A stretch of DNA of 50,499 nucleotides from an uncultured Schlesneria sp. Its GTDB lineage: Bacteria > Planctomycetota > Planctomycetia > Planctomycetales > Planctomycetaceae. Under the pieces are notes generated by a model. The model did not search any database and had not been told where the DNA came from. It saw nothing but the letters and a program-made list of their open reading frames with translations. The stretch covers positions 1 through 50,499 of the forward strand of contig CAIMFH010000070.1 of assembly GCA_903840265.1 (NCBI GenBank). The letters are read 5' to 3'. Of the stretch, positions 15,659 to 39,129 are shown piece by piece (the first letter of the stretch is position 1; each line of letters starts with the position of its first letter). The position numbers were made by a program, and so were the translations under genes.

Positions 15659-15689
15659 CCTATTCGATGCAATACCTGAGAGAGAACTC

Positions 15690-30700: not shown

Positions 30701-32155
30701 TACTGGCGTGCGGCACAAAATACCTGGAAGCAACTTCTGTCGAACAAATACGCGACGCTGGACATTGAATTTGAAGGGGCGAAACACAAAGTCTCGGAAC
30801 TGGCTCAGCAACGACTCGCCAACCCGGTCTATCGGCGGTATGACGCTCTCGAACAGATTTCCTTTCGACATCTCGAGCGAAGCTGGGTCGCACCACTCGC
30901 TTTCGCAGATCGGGAAGCTGGTGCCAACATCCTTGTTCCGCAGGGCCTACCACCTTCGCTGGAACTTACCAGCATCCTTGTTCGTCCGCGCGCATCGGCC
31001 GATTCGCGCTGGGACTGCGTTGAGCGTGCGACGGGCCATGTGCGATGGAGTCGATCCTGGACGATTGCGCCGCAGTGGTCTGCCTATGGGGATTCACATT
31101 TGCTGATCGCCATCGAAGATCGATTGATGGCGCTCACTTTGGAATCGGGACAGGAACTGTGGTCCGTCCCACTGAGCACAGCGTCCGGCAAAAATCGGAC
31201 AATCACTGGTATGGATCCCGGCAATCGAATCGTGGACGATCGCTCCTCAAAAGTGCCACCCATTCGACTCTGCGTTCGTGATCACTTCATCGCGGCTTTT
31301 GATCCGCTCGCGGGAGTCACTCTGATTGATGCGCAAGTCGGCAAGGTGTTGTGGACGTTCGTGCCGCCTCGAGGAAAGCTGCAACGTCAATGGTCTTGCG
31401 GAGACCGACAGATCCTTCTGCAAACGTTGCAGCCATCGATCACCTGGATGTTGGACATCGCCGCCGAACGCCGAGTAACTGAAAATCCTGGTTCCACAGA
31501 GCCATGGTTGTGGGGGCCTGAAGTTGACGACGCAGAATCCATGGTGACGGTGAATACGGATCGAAATATTGAATCAATGGTCACTCAGTCTGGACGAACC
31601 CGCTGGGTCTATCAGGGCGGAATGTCGTTCGCTCATACCGATCCCTATTTGTGGTCTGCCGGATCACGATTGTTGCTGACGGTCGATGGAATGACATTGG
31701 CTGGCGTGAATCGAGCGACGGGGCATTCCGACTGGTCCGTGGGGATCGCTGGCCGCCCCTTTGAACATCCAGCGCAGCAAGTGATTGCGACGAACGACAA
31801 CGCATACGCCGCCAGCCAAGGCTTGCTGCGACGGATCTCACTAAGGTATGGCACGTGTGAGTGGGAACAGTTTCTAGGTAGCGCAGCAGAACAGTGGCGA
31901 GTGGCTGCCAGCCATGACTCGGTCGCGGCTTGGCCTGTCGACGCTATGGAACCGCATAAACAGCAGGCGTCGTTCGTTGTCTGGTGCGATGCGAACGACG
32001 GACGCATCCTGCAACGTCTGAATCTGCCCAAGGGCGAGCGAGTCGTTAACGCTATCGGTGATGAACAGGGGTGGCTGGTTCAGACGAATCAGAACCTCAT
32101 TGCCTTTCGCTCGTCTGGCGAGCGGCAAGCCGTCGCTACCGCCGACAAGCAGTAA
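27752..32155 (+). CDS. giant PQQ-propeller and TPR protein, exported
   Basis: About 1467 residues. A signal or anchor segment (FYLLLCSAGLIALSLLVV) precedes a helical region, then a beta-propeller of the quinoprotein-like type with repeated VSHLLLSTGAGKLFLSTDAG and GRLDWAVSYESV patterns. From about residue 730 to 1030 the protein is tetratricopeptide-like (AIAALRDAIGSDEQTDQSAA, VEHLAEARDLAVEPGEVAAI, VEHWQEIL). A second propeller follows (GQELWSVPLS, GKVLWTFVPPR, SGRTRWVYQGGM). Start: GTG 27752 with GGAAGAGG just upstream, preferred over TTG 27725. Probably a periplasmic or outer-envelope scaffold; PQQ binding is not implied by the fold. It is the last gene of the string. Confidence 0.75.
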   Translation: MNHRRFYLLLCSAGLIALSLLVVTTDSAERPKKPMRETVTLPVDKNALKRFGAIEDYLAEKRWSEAIDLLQEIAQTDGRALVLAQPGTAGESAVYLNVATRCNILLSQLPPEGLATYRKKIDPQAKRWLDHWKQTRDEADLQRLVREAYLSSLGDEALWALGEAAWDRGDLASARLYWTQLVPLGQEAREANLPTVLRYPDSDLDQAAILARLVLCTLLEGERNRAGIEVERFGERFPDATGTLAGRHGRFVDLLKQIYEESAPWNLTGEAIATFGLNNGRSGTLPSSVEIGASKWSRPLPSNRSATASDRGPLSYHPVTYEDFVFVNNARSIWAWNLLTGEPAWASDRGTAEIYPPAPDDITGLPQQKGNIGVPHYTMTIADGRLYARMGSAITNVAEGEGTADSELVCLDVAHGQGKLVWKVAAHELIKEEHTWRFEGSPLILAGRAYVVLSRRPQLEFAIACLEASSGALLWHRPVVFARGNVEEHQNRVSHLLLSTGAGKLFLSTDAGAIIAVNAKDGRLDWAVSYESVVIDKAPLQTKSLQGLVPAMFHEGFVFVAPNDCSRLFCIEADSGRVRWQLKQPEPARERWRHLLGVVPGGDAGRLIVSGTTLSSIDIATKTIVFGPRSSGTGNRQSLPETDRGFGRGVIAGRVIMWPTLESIKIVDSTTGTTIGNKPLHAAGAAETGGNLAVSQGMLLVAQPERLVVYCEYSLLKRRLEKQISEIKTDDQFANLLLASANSDRRQSLAYLYGKLSDLEFAQGNLGAAIAALRDAIGSDEQTDQSAASRSRLRLMELLRQAGRTAMSEGHVAVAVEHLAEARDLAVEPGEVAAILMELAKSELARNRPVAAVEHWQEILDDSRIRDASTADSTFGSVAEKAISDLIHDRGRAVFSEVEHRAAEEISSLLAAKDLVGLRQTLQKYPQAQATAVAWHDLAAMERSAGQFNSALAIQTQLMNQAVLPREQAAAMADRANTLEAGGYWRAAQNTWKQLLSNKYATLDIEFEGAKHKVSELAQQRLANPVYRRYDALEQISFRHLERSWVAPLAFADREAGANILVPQGLPPSLELTSILVRPRASADSRWDCVERATGHVRWSRSWTIAPQWSAYGDSHLLIAIEDRLMALTLESGQELWSVPLSTASGKNRTITGMDPGNRIVDDRSSKVPPIRLCVRDHFIAAFDPLAGVTLIDAQVGKVLWTFVPPRGKLQRQWSCGDRQILLQTLQPSITWMLDIAAERRVTENPGSTEPWLWGPEVDDAESMVTVNTDRNIESMVTQSGRTRWVYQGGMSFAHTDPYLWSAGSRLLLTVDGMTLAGVNRATGHSDWSVGIAGRPFEHPAQQVIATNDNAYAASQGLLRRISLRYGTCEWEQFLGSAAEQWRVAASHDSVAAWPVDAMEPHKQQASFVVWCDANDGRILQRLNLPKGERVVNAIGDEQGWLVQTNQNLIAFRSSGERQAVATADKQ

Positions 32156-32179
32156 TGCATTCCCGCCGCGACCCGAAGA

Positions 32180-34474
32180 TCATTCCACAAACAAGAATTC
32201 GTTCGCGTTCAAAAGCGCGTGGCACAGGTCGATGAAGGCCTCGTCAAGATCCGAGTCTTTCACGCGATTGGCGTCCTCACCGGTCCGAGTCTGATCGGAA
32301 ATCGCGATCGTCTGTTGCTGATCGGCGATGAACTTTCGCGACACTTCCAGTTCACGTGAGCTGGGAGCTCGACCGAAGGCGATCTTCCAGGCCGTTGCGG
32401 TCTGAGCATCCGGGTCCGCGGAGTCAGCTTCGCTCTTGGCGCGTTGCGCCAGTTGCTTCGCGGCATCAAGAATCAAGCTGCTGTTGAGCAGCATCAGGGC
32501 TTGGGGGGCGATCGTCGTCGTGGTGCGGCAGCCGCACGTTTCGTGCATGTCGGGAAAATCGAACGCGGCCATTAACGGGTAAGGCAGGTTGCGCTTCGTA
32601 TAGATGTAAACAGAGCGCCGCGTTCGTTCGGGTGGTTCGCTCAGTTTCCAACCCCCTGCTCCAGCAAAGTTCGGTGGCAACTCGGGCCGAACGCCGGGGC
32701 CAAACATCGTGTCGTTCAAGGTTCCCGCGGAGGCCAGCCACGAATCGCGGATTCGTTCGGAAGAGAGACGCTGGCGAGGGAAACTGGAATAGATGTGCTG
32801 TGGCGACTGTTGCTCAGACGCAATCGCTTTCGAATCCGACTCATCGTCAGCAGATCGTGTGTTGCTGGCTTGGCGATAGGTGGCTGACATCACAATCAAG
32901 CGGTGCAGGTGCTTGGTGTCATAGCCTTGGGCAATAAATTCGGAGGTCAGCCAGTTCAACAGAGGGAGGTGCGACGGGGCGGGAGTCAGCACGCCGAAAT
33001 CGTTGGCATTGTCGACCAGGCCGCGGCCGAAATGTCCCTGCCAGAGACGATTCACCCAGACTCGATGAGTGAGCGGATGGTCGGCCGAAGTCAGCCACTT
33101 GGCCAGGACCGAGCGGCGGCCGGAAGAGCGATCGCTGGGGGGGATGAAGGTCGGCGGGTCCACAGTCTCCGCCTTCCGCAGGATGGCGGGATAGTGCGGT
33201 GGCAGTTCATCCGTCGGTTGGTCGTAACTTCCTGAATCGAGCAGGTGCGTCTTCGGCGCTACAGTCGACAATTCGGCGACCGCCATGACGCTCGTTTCTC
33301 GCGGCGGCTTGGGTTGATGCTTGCGCGCCTCGGCAATCAGCTTCAGCAGTTCTTCCCGTCGAGCTTTCTTCTCATCACTCACATTTTTGGGAAGGTCGTC
33401 GTTCTTGTATTCCATTTGCCGTTCCGACCAGAACGCCAATTGCCGCTGCATTGTTGTCCGCTCTTCGGGCAGGCAGTCGATCGCGGCGAGCACGTCTTGA
33501 GGGAACTTCATTCGGCGATCGCCTGCCATCTTGATGCGAGCTTCCATTTCGATCGCATGCAGTTCGTGACGCAGGTCGGCCGTTTCATTCAGCCATTCCT
33601 GTCGACGATGCTGATACTCGGTCAACTGGTCATGCGACCCCACGGGGACTTTATCTTCGAGGACGATGCCCGAGAAGAACGCCTGCAACTGGTAGAAGTC
33701 GGTCTGCAGCAGCGGATCGAATTTGTGGTCGTGGCATTGAGCACAGCCGATCGAAAGTCCCAGGACGGCGGCTCCCAGGTTTCCCGTCAGATCATTCAGA
33801 GCCAGTTGGCGGGCGAGATGAATGTTGGACGCGTTGCTTTCATCGGCCCACATCCGGCAGTAACCGGTCGCCGTGAGGGCCTCGACGTTATCGGGAAACA
33901 ATTCGTCGCCCGCGAGTTGCTCCTGCAGGAACTGATCGTAAGGGAGTCCGCGGTTGAAGGCGCGAATCACATAGTCGCGATACTTGTAAGCCAGTGGTCG
34001 AGCCGGATCGGCGTTAAACCCGGCGGTCTCTGCGAAGCGCACCACGTCCAACCACATTCGCCCCCACGCTTCGCCGTAATGCGGGCTGGCGAGCAGCCGA
34101 TCGACCACTTTCAAATAGGCTTCCGGAGATTCATCAGCAAGAAACTCAGCAGCTTCGGCGGGGGTCGGTGGCAAGCCGATCAGATCAAAGTTGACTCGTC
34201 GTAGCAGAGTCAGCTTGTCGGCTGGCTTCGAGAATTCGAGCCCATCCTTCTGGAGGGCGGACAAAACAAACGAATCGATCTCATTGAGTGGCTGCGATGG
34301 AGTGGGCTCGGACGTGGTCGGGATTGCTCGCCGCGAGACCGGTTGAAAGGCCCAGTGACCGCGTTCGGTCTCAGAAAACTTCGGCAGGTCAGTGCCGTAT
34401 CCGTTCGCGTGAATGCACAGCAGCAGACACAATCCCACGAACCCGCACAGTTTCACATTCGGACGAGGAACCAT
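32180..34474 (-). CDS. DUF1549/DUF1553 domain protein (planctomycete cytochrome-associated family)
   Basis: About 764 residues from ATG 34474, with GGGAG roughly ten bases upstream. After a hydrophobic signal (LCGFVGLCLLLCIHANGYG), a DUF1549 domain shows LRRVNFDLIGLPPTPAEAAE and WLDVVRFAETAGF with CAQCHDHKFDPL. A DUF1553 domain then carries WVNRLWQGHFGRGLVDNAND and FDFPDMHETCGCRT. The N-terminal cytochrome module found in some members is absent. These proteins are abundant in planctomycetes and usually pair with a DUF1501 protein; none is seen here. Function is unproven, with envelope-associated degradation of complex polysaccharides often suggested. An alternative upstream start is at 34522. 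Confidence 0.85.
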   Translation of the reverse strand: MVPRPNVKLCGFVGLCLLLCIHANGYGTDLPKFSETERGHWAFQPVSRRAIPTTSEPTPSQPLNEIDSFVLSALQKDGLEFSKPADKLTLLRRVNFDLIGLPPTPAEAAEFLADESPEAYLKVVDRLLASPHYGEAWGRMWLDVVRFAETAGFNADPARPLAYKYRDYVIRAFNRGLPYDQFLQEQLAGDELFPDNVEALTATGYCRMWADESNASNIHLARQLALNDLTGNLGAAVLGLSIGCAQCHDHKFDPLLQTDFYQLQAFFSGIVLEDKVPVGSHDQLTEYQHRRQEWLNETADLRHELHAIEMEARIKMAGDRRMKFPQDVLAAIDCLPEERTTMQRQLAFWSERQMEYKNDDLPKNVSDEKKARREELLKLIAEARKHQPKPPRETSVMAVAELSTVAPKTHLLDSGSYDQPTDELPPHYPAILRKAETVDPPTFIPPSDRSSGRRSVLAKWLTSADHPLTHRVWVNRLWQGHFGRGLVDNANDFGVLTPAPSHLPLLNWLTSEFIAQGYDTKHLHRLIVMSATYRQASNTRSADDESDSKAIASEQQSPQHIYSSFPRQRLSSERIRDSWLASAGTLNDTMFGPGVRPELPPNFAGAGGWKLSEPPERTRRSVYIYTKRNLPYPLMAAFDFPDMHETCGCRTTTTIAPQALMLLNSSLILDAAKQLAQRAKSEADSADPDAQTATAWKIAFGRAPSSRELEVSRKFIADQQQTIAISDQTRTGEDANRVKDSDLDEAFIDLCHALLNANEFLFVE

Positions 34475-34667
34475 CAGGAAAAATCTCCCGAATCGGCAAG
34501 CGAGATTGGCAGGCTTCGGCATTGAAGTACGCGGGGAAAGTATACCGCGAAGATTTGCACCTGCGAAACTGACAAGTTCCAGACCATTGCGAAATTGTGG
34601 TCGGACGACGCCGGTTTGCTCGGATTATCCATGCCGGAGTCGGAGGGATGCCAACGTACGAGCTTGG

Positions 34668-34708
34668 AAAAGAAAGAGACCACGACATCTTGTGGATGTC
34701 GTGGTCTC
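34668..34708 (-). terminator. strong intrinsic terminator
   Basis: GAGACCACGACATC (34676-34689) pairs with GATGTCGTGGTCTC (34695-34708), a perfect 14-bp stem with a 5-base loop. Read on the minus strand the hairpin is followed by TTTCTTTT (34668-34675). It ends the candidate RNA at 34668-34856. The next minus-strand gene begins about 190 bases further on, so attenuation of that gene is the alternative role. Confidence 0.9.
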
Positions 34709-34856
34709 GTAATCGCTTATCGGACAAGTGGATCGCGACGGTGGAGTCGCAAGAGTTGAGCGGGATCCGGTAGTGACTAGCACTCACCGTTGAATCGATC
34801 CGAGCCCACAAATAAGGTTTGGCACCTCCGGCGGAATCATGTATGTCCGATAAAGC
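34668..34856 (-). ncRNA. candidate structured RNA of about 190 nt (6S-like topology)
   Basis: No protein is convincing here, but the minus strand shows a complete small transcription unit. A TTGTGA/TATAAC promoter with a 17-base spacer predicts a start near 34856, exactly where the 5' arm of a long closing stem begins (34844-34856). That arm pairs with 34715-34726 over 12 base pairs with one bulge. Inside are a hairpin at 34768-34789 and a small hairpin at 34735-34750 on the 3' side. A 14-bp terminator with a T-tract closes the unit. Length, closing stem, large interior and 3'-side hairpin resemble 6S RNA. No diagnostic 6S, SRP, RNase P or tmRNA motif was recognised, so identity is tentative; a leader/attenuator of the DUF1549 gene is the alternative. 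Confidence 0.5.
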
Positions 34857-34862
34857 GGGCGG

Positions 34863-34891
34863 GTTATAGGCCTTCCCCGCAACGTTCACAA
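34863..34891 (-). promoter_or_regulatory. sigma-70-type promoter of the candidate RNA
   Basis: On the minus strand, -35 TTGTGA (34886-34891) and -10 TATAAC (34863-34868) are separated by 17 bases. The predicted start near 34856 coincides with the first base of the closing stem of the RNA. Confidence 0.65.
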
Positions 34892-34907
34892 GACGGGATT
34901 CTTAAGG

Positions 34908-34979
34908 AAAAGCCACTGCGCGCCACAACGTCATCTGTTGCCGGGAATAGGAGCGAATTCTGCCGTTCAAGTGGCTTTT
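34908..34979 (-). terminator. possible long-loop terminator of the peptide ABC ATPase gene
   Basis: AGTGGCTTTT (34970-34979), overlapping the gene's stop codon, can pair with AAAAGCCACT (34908-34917) over ten base pairs. The 52-base loop is long for an intrinsic terminator, but the minus-strand arm ends in TTTTCCTT. It would separate the ABC gene from the candidate RNA's own promoter. Confidence 0.4.
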
Positions 34980-36834
34980 ACTTTGCCGTTGCCAGTTGCT
35001 CTTTCAATTGCCGTTCGCGCCGTTCGATCGCTTCCAGTGACGGTTGCGGAATCGCGGCGATCAGCCGTTGAGTGTATTCGTTCTGAGGGTTGGCGTAGAT
35101 CTCGTCCGATGGCCCAAACTCGATGATCTTTCCGGCATTCATCACGGCCATCATGTCAGACATGAATTTCACGACGCTCAGATCATGGCTGATGAAGATG
35201 TATGTCAGGCCGCGCTTTTCCTGAAGGTCCTTCAACAGGTTCAACACTTGAGCCTGAACGGAGACATCGAGAGCCGACACGGACTCATCACAAATGAGAA
35301 AATCGGGTTCCACAGCCAAGGCCCGGGCAATGCACAGCCGCTGACGCTGGCCCCCTGAGAACTCGTGAGGGTAGCGCTGCAGATGTTCGGCCAGTAGCCC
35401 GACTTCCTCCAGCAGGTTGGCGGATTTATCGCGGCGATCCTGAGAGCTTGAACCGAGTCGATGAACGCTCATCGCTTCCGTCAACATCGCCTCGACGGTC
35501 ATCCGCGGATTCAACGAACTGTAGGGGTCCTGAAAAATAATCTGCATGCGCCGACGTTCACGACGTAAAGCCGCCCCCTGAAGGCTAGCCCAATCGAGTC
35601 CTTCGAACATCACGCTGCCGCCGGTCATCCGAACCAGCCGCAGGATGGCTCGACCTGTAGTCGTCTTGCCGCAGCCCGATTCACCGACCAGGCCCAGAGT
35701 CTGGCCCTTGTAGACTTCGAAGCTGATGCCATCGACAGCCTTGACGTGCGAGACGGTTCGTCGGAGCAAACCCTTCTTGATCGGGTAGTAGACCTGCAGG
35801 TCTTTGACCTGCAACAGTGGTTGCTGGTTGGCAGGGACGTAGCTCACCAGCGTACTGGCCGAGTGGTTTGCCGCACCGGCCGCATCAGGTTCGGGCTTGG
35901 GATGCAACAATCGTCCTCGTCCGCGGCCTTCGATTTCCGCGAGACGCTCGGGCGACAACTGCTTCTCGGTAATGATCAAGTGGCCGTCGTCATCGACGGT
36001 CGACGTCATGAAGTCGGCCACTGTGGGCAATCGGCGCCGAGTCGTCTGCAGGCGAGGTCGGCACGCCAGCAGTCCCTTGGTGTAGGGATGCTGAGGGTTC
36101 GCGAAGATGTTTCTGGCCGTGTTGTATTCCACGAGCTTGCCGCGATACATCACGGCGACTTCGTCGGCGATCTCGGCGATGACTCCCAGGTCGTGCGTGA
36201 TAAACAGAATCGCCATCCCGCGTTCGTCGCGCAGCTTGCGAATCAGCGCCAGGATCTGAGCTTGGATCGTCACGTCCAGCGCGGTCGTCGGTTCGTCGGC
36301 AATCAACAGTTTCGGATTGCACGACAGGGCCATCGCGATCATTACGCGCTGCTTCTGCCCGCCGGACATTTCATGCGGATACTTGTCCAACGACATCTCA
36401 GGATCGGGGATGCCGACTTCGCGGAACAGGTCGAGCGCCCGCTGCCGGGCCTGAGCACGCGTCAAGTTTTCGTGCAGCAGGACCGCTTCAGCGACTTGAT
36501 CGCCGACTCGATAAACCGGGTTCAGTGATGTGCCGGGCTCTTGGAAAATCATCGCGATGTCTTTGCCGCGAATCGCTGGCATCGCGTTGCGCGGTAGTTG
36601 GACTAGATCGCGGCCCAAGAATGAAATGCGGCCCCCTGCGATCGTCGCGCCGACATCGGGAAGCAGACGCATGATCGTGAGCGAAGTAACCGATTTCCCT
36701 GAGCCGGATTCCCCCACTAGCCCTAACGTCTCGCCCAGGCGAATCTTGACGGATAAGTCGTCAACGGCTTTGACCGTTCCCGCCTCGGTGCGGAAATAAG
36801 TCTTCAGACCCTCAATTTCCAGCAATTCGGTCAT
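34978..36834 (-). CDS. peptide/nickel ABC transporter, fused two-domain ATP-binding protein (DppD-DppF / GsiA type)
   Basis: A 618-residue cytoplasmic protein that fuses the two ATPases of an oligopeptide importer. Domain 1 has Walker [15 protein letters not shown] at about residue 40, signature [16 protein letters not shown] and Walker [14 protein letters not shown] linker near residue 300 follows. Domain 2 has [30 protein letters not shown] and [12 protein letters not shown]. Both carry the C-terminal extension of peptide ABC ATPases ([12 protein letters not shown] and [12 protein letters not shown]). No permease or binding-protein gene is next to it, so the transporter would be assembled from elsewhere. 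A perfect 17-bp dyad overlaps its candidate promoter. Fused forms are known (GsiA, YejF), so the fusion is not novel. Confidence 0.88.
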
Positions 36835-36874
36835 CCGTTAGTCCATCAGTGTCGCGACATGCATTCGGTCCTTC

Positions 36875-36902
36875 TTTACACTGCCAGTGTAACTGCAGCC
36901 AA
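36875..36902 (-). promoter_or_regulatory. candidate promoter with perfect operator-like dyad TTACACTGCCAGTGTAA
   Basis: A perfect inverted repeat (36876-36892) of two 8-base arms around one central base. On the minus strand it overlaps a possible promoter, -35 TTGGCT (36897-36902) and -10 TGTAAA (36875-36880) with a 16-base spacer, upstream of the peptide ABC ATPase gene. A dimeric repressor binding over the -10 would block transcription. The cognate regulator is unknown. Confidence 0.5.
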
Positions 36903-37060
36903 CGCCGCTACCAATTCAGATCAGCAGCCCTTTTGGAGATCACGAGGATTCCGAAGCGGATCGGTTCGTCGGAACGGGATACCTCCTTGCTCTCCGATCT
37001 CCTGCCATTCACAATAGACGCGTGATCAATCGTATTGTTCTGAGTTTGAAGTCGCTGCCC

Positions 37061-37852
37061 ATGCATCAGTTTCGTCTTGCCGTTGCCACTCGCTGTTTTC
37101 GCCAGCCGCTGATGGATTCGTTGAAATCCGCCGCGAGCATTGGCGTGGAAGGTGTTCAGTTTGATCTGCGCAATGAAGTCGTAGCGACGGAATTGACGGA
37201 TACGGGACGCAGGCAATTCCTGCATCGCCTGACCGAACTGAATCTGACGATCTCTGGAACGTCGTATCCATTGTCTCGCCCGTTGACAGACGAATCGGAA
37301 ATCGATCGTCGCGTCAGCGAGTTACGAGCGGCGATGACATTCGCGTATTCGCTGAAGGCGCGCACGCTGTGCTGCAAAGTGGGTCGAATCCCGGAAGACC
37401 GCGAATCGAAATCTCGGCAACTCCTGGTGGAAGTCTTGAATGACCTGGCGAACCACGCCAATCACGTTGGGACAGTGCTCTGTATTACGCCGACGAACGA
37501 CTCGGCCGAAGATCTGCTGGCGCTCGTGCAGGAAGTGAAATCGGGACCGATCGGGATCGATTATGACCCCGCGCATTTTGCGTTGACGGGCCGCTCCAAT
37601 GCCGAGGCGTTGCGCGTTCTGCACGCGGTGACAATGCATGTTCAGTTGCGAGATGGCTTTCGAGGTTTTGATGGCGGCGGTCAAGAAGCGGCCGTCGGCA
37701 GCGGTGTCGTCGACTGGACCGAGTTGCTGGCGCTGCTGGGTGAGATCGACTATCGCGGCTGGTTGACGGCGATTCGCAATCAGGGTGATGACCGGGCGAA
37801 CGATGTCGCCCAGGCGGTCAAGCATGTGGGGCGGTTGCTGCTGGGTGGTTGA
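37061..37852 (+). CDS. sugar phosphate isomerase/epimerase-like TIM-barrel protein
   Basis: A 263-residue xylose-isomerase-like TIM barrel (AP endonuclease 2 family fold), a family that includes sugar epimerases and inosose dehydratases. Seen in order: the first strand FRLAVATRCF, GVEGVQFDLR, LTISGTSYPLSRP, GIDYDPAHFALTG and VTMHVQLRDG. The last two supply the Asp/His positions expected to bind a divalent metal. The C-terminal segment WTELLALLGEIDYRGWLTAI is typical. An upstream GTG at 37022 would add 13 residues and is not favoured, because the barrel begins at the ATG. The exact reaction is unknown. The xseA gene starts 53 bases after its stop. Confidence 0.78.
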   Translation: MHQFRLAVATRCFRQPLMDSLKSAASIGVEGVQFDLRNEVVATELTDTGRRQFLHRLTELNLTISGTSYPLSRPLTDESEIDRRVSELRAAMTFAYSLKARTLCCKVGRIPEDRESKSRQLLVEVLNDLANHANHVGTVLCITPTNDSAEDLLALVQEVKSGPIGIDYDPAHFALTGRSNAEALRVLHAVTMHVQLRDGFRGFDGGGQEAAVGSGVVDWTELLALLGEIDYRGWLTAIRNQGDDRANDVAQAVKHVGRLLLGG

Positions 37853-37905
37853 TTGTCGCCTCGTCCTGCTTGTTCGCTTTCCTTCGATGATTGAGCTCTT
37901 CACCT

Positions 37906-39129
37906 ATGCCCCCTCGTCCACCTGAGACAATACCGGTTCTGACCGTCAGTGCTGTCACCTTTGCGCTCAAAGAAGTCGTGGAAGCGACGTTCCCGCATCT
38001 CTGGGTCTGCGGCGAGATCTCGAACTTGATGCGCGCCGGATCCGGGCATATCTATTTCACGTTAAAGGACGAGGCCGCGCAACTGAAAGCGGTGATGTGG
38101 CGCACTGCGGCTCAACGAATGCGATTCGATCTCCGCGATGGGATGGAAGTCATCGTCGCGGGTGGAATTCAGGTCTACGAAGCGCGCGGGCAGCATCAGA
38201 TTGTTGTGGAGCAGCTTCAGCCCAAGGGGATCGGACCGCTGGAATTGGCATTCCGGCAACTGCAGCAGAAGCTGGCTGAGGAGGGGCTGTTCGAAGTCGA
38301 ACGCAAACGGCCGTTGCCGCGATTTCCTAAGCGGATTGCCCTCATCACGAGCCCCAGCGGCGCGGCTGTTCGAGATATGATCCAGGTGATCACACGTCGT
38401 TGGCCGAAGGCTCGCATCATCCTGGTTCCGGTGGCCGTTCAAGGGGATCAGGCGGCCGGTCAGATTGCCGCGGCATTGCGCAAAGTGCATACGATTCCCG
38501 ACGTGGATGTCGTGATCTGCGGTCGCGGCGGCGGCAGTCTGGAAGACCTGTGGGCCTTCAACGAAGAAGTGGTCGCACGCGCCATCCATGCCTGCAAGAT
38601 TCCGGTCGTGAGCGCAGTCGGTCACGAAGTCGATGTCACGATTGCCGACCTGGTGGCTGACAGGCGAGCTCTGACCCCCAGTGAGGCGGCTGAACTTGTC
38701 GTACCGCTGGAATCAGATGTGCGACTGGAACTCGATCAGGTGCGACAGCGTCTGGTGAACTCGTTGAGGCAACAAACGCAACGGGCTCGACTGCGGCTTG
38801 ATTCGGTCGCGAGTCGACGCTGTTTTTCGCGACCGCTGGAACGCATCCAAGAGCAGTCGCATCGTCTGGACGATCTGGAGAGTCGGCTGAAACGAGGCAT
38901 GAAGCAAGTGGTCGAATCGTCAAAGCAGAAATTGCAGGCATTCGCATCATCTTTGAATGCGCTCAGTCCGTTGGCAGTCCTCGATCGAGGCTACTCGTTG
39001 ACCAAGCGCATCTCAGACGGAGAACTGATCCGAGACGCGTCGACAATCTCTGTCGGCGATCAGATTTCAACGTTACTCGCGCAGGGAAGCATCATCAGCG
39101 AAGTGCGCGCCATTGAGACCGATGATTGA
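37906..39129 (+). CDS. xseA: exodeoxyribonuclease VII large subunit
   Basis: The large, catalytic subunit of exonuclease VII, a single-strand-specific nuclease. It is about 407 residues from ATG 37906; TTG 37891 would add five. The N-terminal OB fold (LWVCGEISNLMRAGSGHIYF) binds single-stranded DNA. The catalytic region contains ALITSPSGAAVRDMI, VVICGRGGGSLEDLWAFNEE and AVGHEVDVTIADLVADRRA. A long coiled-coil region toward the C-terminus is followed by the conserved LDRGYSL segment. The small subunit gene xseB is not found next to it. Confidence 0.93.
   Translation: MPPRPPETIPVLTVSAVTFALKEVVEATFPHLWVCGEISNLMRAGSGHIYFTLKDEAAQLKAVMWRTAAQRMRFDLRDGMEVIVAGGIQVYEARGQHQIVVEQLQPKGIGPLELAFRQLQQKLAEEGLFEVERKRPLPRFPKRIALITSPSGAAVRDMIQVITRRWPKARIILVPVAVQGDQAAGQIAAALRKVHTIPDVDVVICGRGGGSLEDLWAFNEEVVARAIHACKIPVVSAVGHEVDVTIADLVADRRALTPSEAAELVVPLESDVRLELDQVRQRLVNSLRQQTQRARLRLDSVASRRCFSRPLERIQEQSHRLDDLESRLKRGMKQVVESSKQKLQAFASSLNALSPLAVLDRGYSLTKRISDGELIRDASTISVGDQISTLLAQGSIISEVRAIETDD

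Follow-up and report, generated by a model that had tools for sequence, protein, structure and literature searches.

A predicted free-standing structured RNA with a conserved three-way junction in Planctomycetaceae and further families of Planctomycetia

A minus-strand transcription unit between two genes

The window, the whole 50,499 nt stretch of DNA analysed here, comes from an uncultured member of Schlesneria, a genus assigned to the Planctomycetaceae in the NCBI taxonomy. Between two minus-strand genes, it carries a unit of 189 nt with a promoter, a folded RNA, a terminator and a T-tract. The features, in the order of transcription, are as follows.

34978–36834, minus strand: upstream flanking gene, fused two-domain oligopeptide-type ABC ATPase
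34668–34856, minus strand: the 189 nt unit (the element)
34886–34891, minus strand: −35 box TTGTGA, read from the sequence
34863–34868, minus strand: −10 box TATAAC, 17 nt after the −35 box
34844–34856, minus strand: 5´ strand of the P1 closing stem, GCTTTATCGGACA, supported by covariation, one bulged T; presumed transcription start at ~34856
34835–34838 with 34734–34731, minus strand: possible inner extension P1b, GATT with GATC, weak (79% of cells paired)
34819–34830, minus strand: core of the J1/2 junction strand, CGGAGGTGCCAA, near-invariant in 31 homologues
34755–34809, minus strand: P2 terminal arm, supported by covariation
34735–34750, minus strand: P3 hairpin, GCGAC-TCCACC-GTCGC, stem conserved or altered on both strands in relatives
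34715–34726, minus strand: 3´ strand of the P1 closing stem, TGTCCGATAAGC, supported by covariation, 12 bp with the 5´ strand
34708–34676, minus strand: intrinsic terminator GAGACCACGACATC-CACAA-GATGTCGTGGTCTC, perfect 14-bp stem
34675–34668, minus strand: T-tract TTTCTTTT, directly 3´ of the terminator stem
32180–34522, minus strand: downstream flanking gene, DUF1549/DUF1553 (PSCyt2/PSD1) protein

The initial annotation had described a TTGTGA-17-TATAAC promoter, a 12-bp closing stem and a perfect 14-bp terminator followed by a T-tract, and each lies on the minus strand where it had been placed. The promoter is also borne out by its conservation: TTGnnn-17-TATAA(C/A) was found at the same place in 10/10 genus members examined, a set that includes the window and its near-identical relative L002, and the spacers differ. 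Within the window, TTGnnn-17-TATAAn occurs once on the two strands taken together, as the promoter of the element. A generic promoter scan of positions 32000–38000 did not list it, so the weight given to this promoter rests on its conservation. Just 3´ of the −10 box, the window has a C/G-rich stretch, as do most of the genus members; such a stretch is a trait of growth-regulated stable-RNA promoters. By eye, no single common promoter was apparent in other families.

The window has three places at which a stem of at least 10 bp is followed by a T-tract, the terminator of the element being one of them. Another of the three, at 15661 on the minus strand, is itself a very strong terminator-like stem of 14–16 bp with a T-tract. 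To follow this feature among relatives, we used 97 of 99 homologues, leaving out L035 (at a contig end) and L033. A folding test detected a terminator-like hairpin with a T-tract no more than 70 nt downstream in 87/97 homologues, compared to 10.7 expected from shuffled sequences and 14/97 in an upstream control. A scan that allowed no bulges, which was too strict, still gave 39/97, with 1.0 expected and two in the control. Together with the covariation documented below, these counts strongly support the initial proposal of a discrete, structured RNA bounded by a promoter and a terminator of its own, as far as sequence comparison can speak to it.

The window sequence also folds more stably than its composition predicts. 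For the whole unit the minimum free energy is −78.5 (z = −6.84), and for the unit without its terminator −52.5 (z = −3.59), with 0/200 shuffles as good in either case. A coding reading of an overlapping frame of 166 aa was rejected; the frame had no Pfam match, and its similarity in genus relatives other than L002 breaks into short pieces.

The element is found across part of Planctomycetia, in one copy per genome

BLASTN searches of 59 genomes detected the element in the window genome and 13/14 further genomes of the genus, with weaker matches in five others. Four of these five (L015 to L018) carry the motif, and the fifth, in G058 (E = 0.008), was unconfirmed by a refined model. When a covariance model was run against 198 Planctomycetia genomes, 89 matched with exactly one copy each, 41 in the family of the window and 48 elsewhere. 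Four marginal matches among the 89 (G095, G103, G158 and G195, E = 4e-4 to 7e-4) were unconfirmed by the refined model, while a recheck of 36 genomes with that model added G054 and G163. Under strict filters, these four were the only matches at E ≤ 0.001 in families f2, f3, f4, f6 and f8.

Across the phylum, 36 of 392 sampled genomes matched, all of them Planctomycetia; none was found outside this class with strict filters that scored few candidates per genome, a setting under which weak relatives could escape. An exact-pattern scan of GTDB species genomes returned 24 stretches, 23 titled as planctomycete and one titled just 'bacterium'. We rejected a mobile origin, as there was no match in plasmids or phages and none in viral contigs for the exact pattern.

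Within the window's own family, several genomes, including one of the same genus, gave no accepted match, so that the element is either not indispensable or sometimes too diverged to be seen. The genus member concerned, G010 (4.7 Mb), was the sole one of the 14 further members without the element by BLASTN; the models find none there either, and 6S RNA is present. Judged from these sequence searches, the element represents an RNA family carried by Planctomycetaceae and further families of Planctomycetia, and we consider it nearly certain that it is a genuine conserved RNA gene.

Covariation defines a three-way junction with a conserved open strand

In an alignment of 31 distinct homologues, compensatory changes were present at 14/21 predicted pairs. 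Pairing each P1 strand with its own partner gave a mean of −22.6 kcal/mol compared to −11.9 kcal/mol with the partners of other members, and the same swap of P2 arm halves gave a weak difference (−22.2 compared to −18.4 kcal/mol). We extended the comparison to 99 homologues aligned with a covariance model and a fold of 39 pairs. In this alignment, which was fitted to 32 of the 39 pairs and is thus biased in favour of the fold, 90.1% of cells are paired, compared to 35–45% when partners are slid. Double changes were seen in 37/39 pairs, with 810 double-change cells as opposed to 220 in shuffles.

For a null that takes phylogeny into account, we used a purpose-made, tree-based procedure with 98 sequences, 155 columns and 60 null alignments. 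Twenty column pairs exceeded the 95% maximum of this null, and 20/20 belong to the fold, all in P1 and P2. The initial annotation had suggested looking for the same element, with covariation, in related planctomycetes, and both were thus found. Among the same 98 sequences, the pairs of P3 and P1b were below the null, in the case of P3 because it hardly varies in the alignment. The best column pair outside the fold, 40–49, lies within J1/2 and is also below the null.

By these comparisons, the conserved fold is a three-way junction with a long P1, a long P2 arm, a small P3 and a purine-rich J1/2 strand. The free interior fold of the window sequence differs from this consensus, and holding the upper arm and P3 in place costs 2.4 kcal/mol. 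Two interior hairpins, as first described for the window, are indeed seen in the single-sequence fold, but they are not the conserved ones, which are the P2 arm and P3.

The base of P2 is GCG-CGC in most members and, by eye, UUA-UAA, CGA-UCG or GGA-UCC in some. Raw sequences of L133, L136 and L142 have a GCGGC-GCCGC P3 with longer loops, and a replacement hairpin of the GCAG-CUGC type occupies the P3 position in L099, L137 and L141, with a weak one in L147. A loss of P3 in L137, L141 and L147, which the trimmed alignment had suggested, was therefore rejected on the raw letters. Simple patterns found a P3-like stem in 85/97 homologues, and a local hairpin is possible in the P3 region of 96/97, though not always with the same bases.

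The most constant sequence is in the junction strand. The J1/2 core is CGGAGGUGCCAA and variants, and GGA is present in J1/2 of 95/97 homologues compared to 36.5 expected from shuffles. For UCC in the P3 loop, the count is 93/97, but 78 are expected. A pseudoknot between the J1/2 GGA and the P3-loop UCC is unsupported, given that no such pair was above the covariation null. We also noted by eye that the J1/2 core often contains a short self-complementary stretch (GGUGCC, AGGAUCCU, GAGAUCUC), the register of which varies between clades; this may reflect dimerisation or mere composition.

The element is distinct from 6S RNA and has no match in Rfam

The initial annotation had described the element as 6S-like in size and topology, and had suggested a search against Rfam. 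The likeness to 6S RNA (SsrS, RF00013) is fair in terms of size and layout: both have a closing stem, an open junction strand, a terminal arm and a small 3´ hairpin (P1, J1/2, P2 and P3 in the element), and both are single free-standing genes. The 3´ side of the junction in the element, however, is largely occupied by P3, and its conserved sequences are other than those of 6S RNA. With Rfam 15, the window had no gathering-score match, and the element and 12 homologous loci searched at E ≤ 10 gave sub-threshold matches to unrelated families only. One of these, to BcKCsr2 (20.5 bits, cut-off 40), overlaps the element in L018. For RF00013 itself, there was no match at E ≤ 10 in window positions 34500–35000 or at the elements of the 12 loci.

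A separate 6S gene is present in the window genome (G000:C128:5628-5826; locus L021, 1501–1699), with a score of 48.2 bits against a cut-off of 46.4. In 198 genomes of the class, RF00013 matched 125, 85 of them over the cut-off. We also built a 6S model trained on 31 planctomycete sequences and ran it on element-bearing genomes of other families, in which RF00013 is mostly silent. Of 40 such genomes, 12 gave a clear match (E ≤ 4e-9; three of these 12 had supplied training sequences), three a weak one, and 25 none at E ≤ 0.1. By this means, 6S was found alongside the element in genomes missed by the general 6S model. An identity of the element with 6S is rejected on the missing RF00013 match, the separate gene in the same genome and the trained model. 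Since clear 6S genes are found in 12/40 element-bearing genomes, the element is not a general replacement of 6S either.

Ms1 RNA of Actinobacteria, whose neighbour gene encodes a HAD hydrolase, offers a second comparison, as a lineage-specific structured RNA that recalls 6S without being 6S. Ms1 is given as ~300 nt with a widely conserved gene context (PMC9130861); measured against that account, the element is shorter (189 nt), has no fixed context and occurs alongside 6S. The Rhodopirellula-1 motif (Weinberg 2010), likewise a candidate RNA known partly from Planctomycetes, is compared here by its Table 1 description, which places it in Proteobacteria and Planctomycetes as a probable cis-regulatory element whose status as an RNA is ambiguous, and shows no Rfam accession for it (PMC2864571). 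The element further resembles the orphan trans-acting candidates of comparative-genomics screens, which have a covarying fold, no fixed neighbour and no assigned function, and differs from them in being without an Rfam 15 match. Word searches of the main texts of three such screens (PMC8632094, PMC11109978, PMC6429828) found no planctomycete names, and we recognised no description of the element among the matches listed in literature searches. On these Rfam and text comparisons, the element apparently represents a new, uncatalogued non-coding RNA family.

A trans-acting RNA with a binding junction is the favoured reading

The comparisons establish a fold kept by compensatory changes, a promoter shared within the genus, a terminator after P1 in most homologues, a single copy per genome and no fixed neighbour. 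The combination of a single free-standing gene, arms with fixed pairing and a conserved open junction suggests that the RNA acts in trans and offers its junction to a partner. We propose that the element encodes an independently transcribed, stable non-coding RNA of a new family, made as a discrete transcript of ~190 nt and acting in trans. P1 and P2, whose sequences vary while their pairing is maintained, would serve as arms, and the conserved junction strand (CGGAGGUGCCAA and variants) together with P3 would form a recognition site for a protein or large complex. The RNA would then act as a ribonucleoprotein that sequesters, recruits or scaffolds its partner, and not through base pairing to a single mRNA. 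The same general design, a conserved open junction flanked by arms, is seen in 6S and Ms1 RNA, both binders of RNA polymerase. To this reading, in which an orphan stable RNA acts in trans and a protein or complex is bound at its junction, we assign a probability of roughly 0.55.

The conserved single strand also looks like a base-pairing seed, and such seeds may be shorter than 12 nt, the length that we tested. If the element were a regulatory RNA with J1/2 or the P3 loop as the seed for target mRNAs, it would be natural for the most constant sequence to lie in a strand that is unpaired in the consensus fold, and for the gene to be free-standing. Outside the RNA gene, however, the complement of the 12-nt J1/2 core was found at only four places in 12 genomes, and no 12-nt complement is common to them, which makes pairing with one mRNA through this core unlikely. 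Hfq was found in 0/26 genomes, 17 of them with the element, while control genomes were positive, and in our judgement the long, strictly paired arms exceed the needs of such an RNA. Base pairing is, in sum, a minority possibility that we continue to take seriously.

A binder of RNA polymerase like 6S or Ms1, having evolved separately, would have P1 and P2 mimic duplex DNA around the open junction. The layout and size fit this idea, and Ms1 provides a precedent, being a 6S-like RNA from a different family with the ability to bind RNA polymerase (PMC9130861). Yet 6S coexists with the element in the window genome and elsewhere, so that the element would be the second polymerase-binding RNA of these cells; it also carries no 6S sequence signature, and P3 occupies the 3´ side of the junction. 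We therefore regard this specific partner as unlikely.

GGA is the core of CsrA sites, and the GGA of J1/2 (95/97 homologues, 36.5 expected) could be bound by one of the many CsrA homologues, of which the window genome has 12 by matches to PF02599. Against this, CsrA was found in 32/32 genomes tested, including 15 in which no element was accepted, and the co-occurrence consequently says nothing about a partnership. CsrB-type sponges, moreover, have many GGA loops, whereas one unpaired GGA is constant here. In the window element, the other GGA triplets lie in paired P2. On this evidence, a CsrA-family protein is a candidate partner, but an improbable one. As an observation in its own right, the multiplicity of CsrA is unusual, with 12 PF02599 matches in G000 (e.g. 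C40:47898-48053) and per-genome counts from 2 to 15 across the 32 planctomycete genomes searched.

We also considered that the RNA might be directed at the ribosome and pair with 23S rRNA close to the peptidyl-transferase centre, as GAGGUGCCAAAC of the window is a perfect 12-nt complement of GUUUGGCACCUC in planctomycete 23S rRNA. The window genome's own 23S gene was not found in the assembly by RF02541, and the loci scanned comprised the rRNA and ~1.5 kb of flank on each side. For J1/2, this site ranks first in 3/6 genomes and fourth in one, and 15/15 shuffles were worse in 2/6, but its rank falls to ~41–42 and ~91–92 in two diverged members, even though all six genomes share the identical rRNA site. 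For P3, the site came first in 1/6 and beat no shuffle test convincingly. The chance that this pairing is what the element is for appears very slight.

Equally hard to credit is the initial alternative of a riboswitch or attenuator leader of the DUF1549 gene, which lies about 150–200 nt downstream on the same strand in the window: the genes beside the element vary even among members of the genus, with ABC and DUF1549 genes adjoining it at only the near-identical locus of 13 distinct genus loci (some of them short or at contig ends), no gene family is common to more than four of 21 loci from many families by simple ORF calling, and the window terminator (34708–34676) lies wholly beyond the P1 3´ strand (34726–34715) with no shared bases, leaving no competing aptamer helix.

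Significance

To our knowledge, few structured RNAs are encoded by single, free-standing genes and retained across whole bacterial families. Those with known functions (6S, Ms1, SRP RNA and tmRNA) act on core machinery. The failure to find Hfq in the planctomycete genomes tested, together with the many CsrA homologues, indicates that planctomycete RNA biology is probably unusual. With the gene, fold and covariance model defined, the function of the element is directly testable in cultured species. Returning to the favoured reading of a junction that binds a protein or complex, we tentatively suggest, as a possibility short of an expectation, that the element is a housekeeping RNA of part of Planctomycetia that exists alongside 6S, invented once in the class and kept since, and whose junction would serve RNA polymerase, the ribosome, a CsrA-type protein or another large complex. 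If this were true, the element would represent a further natural class of complex-binding bacterial RNA.
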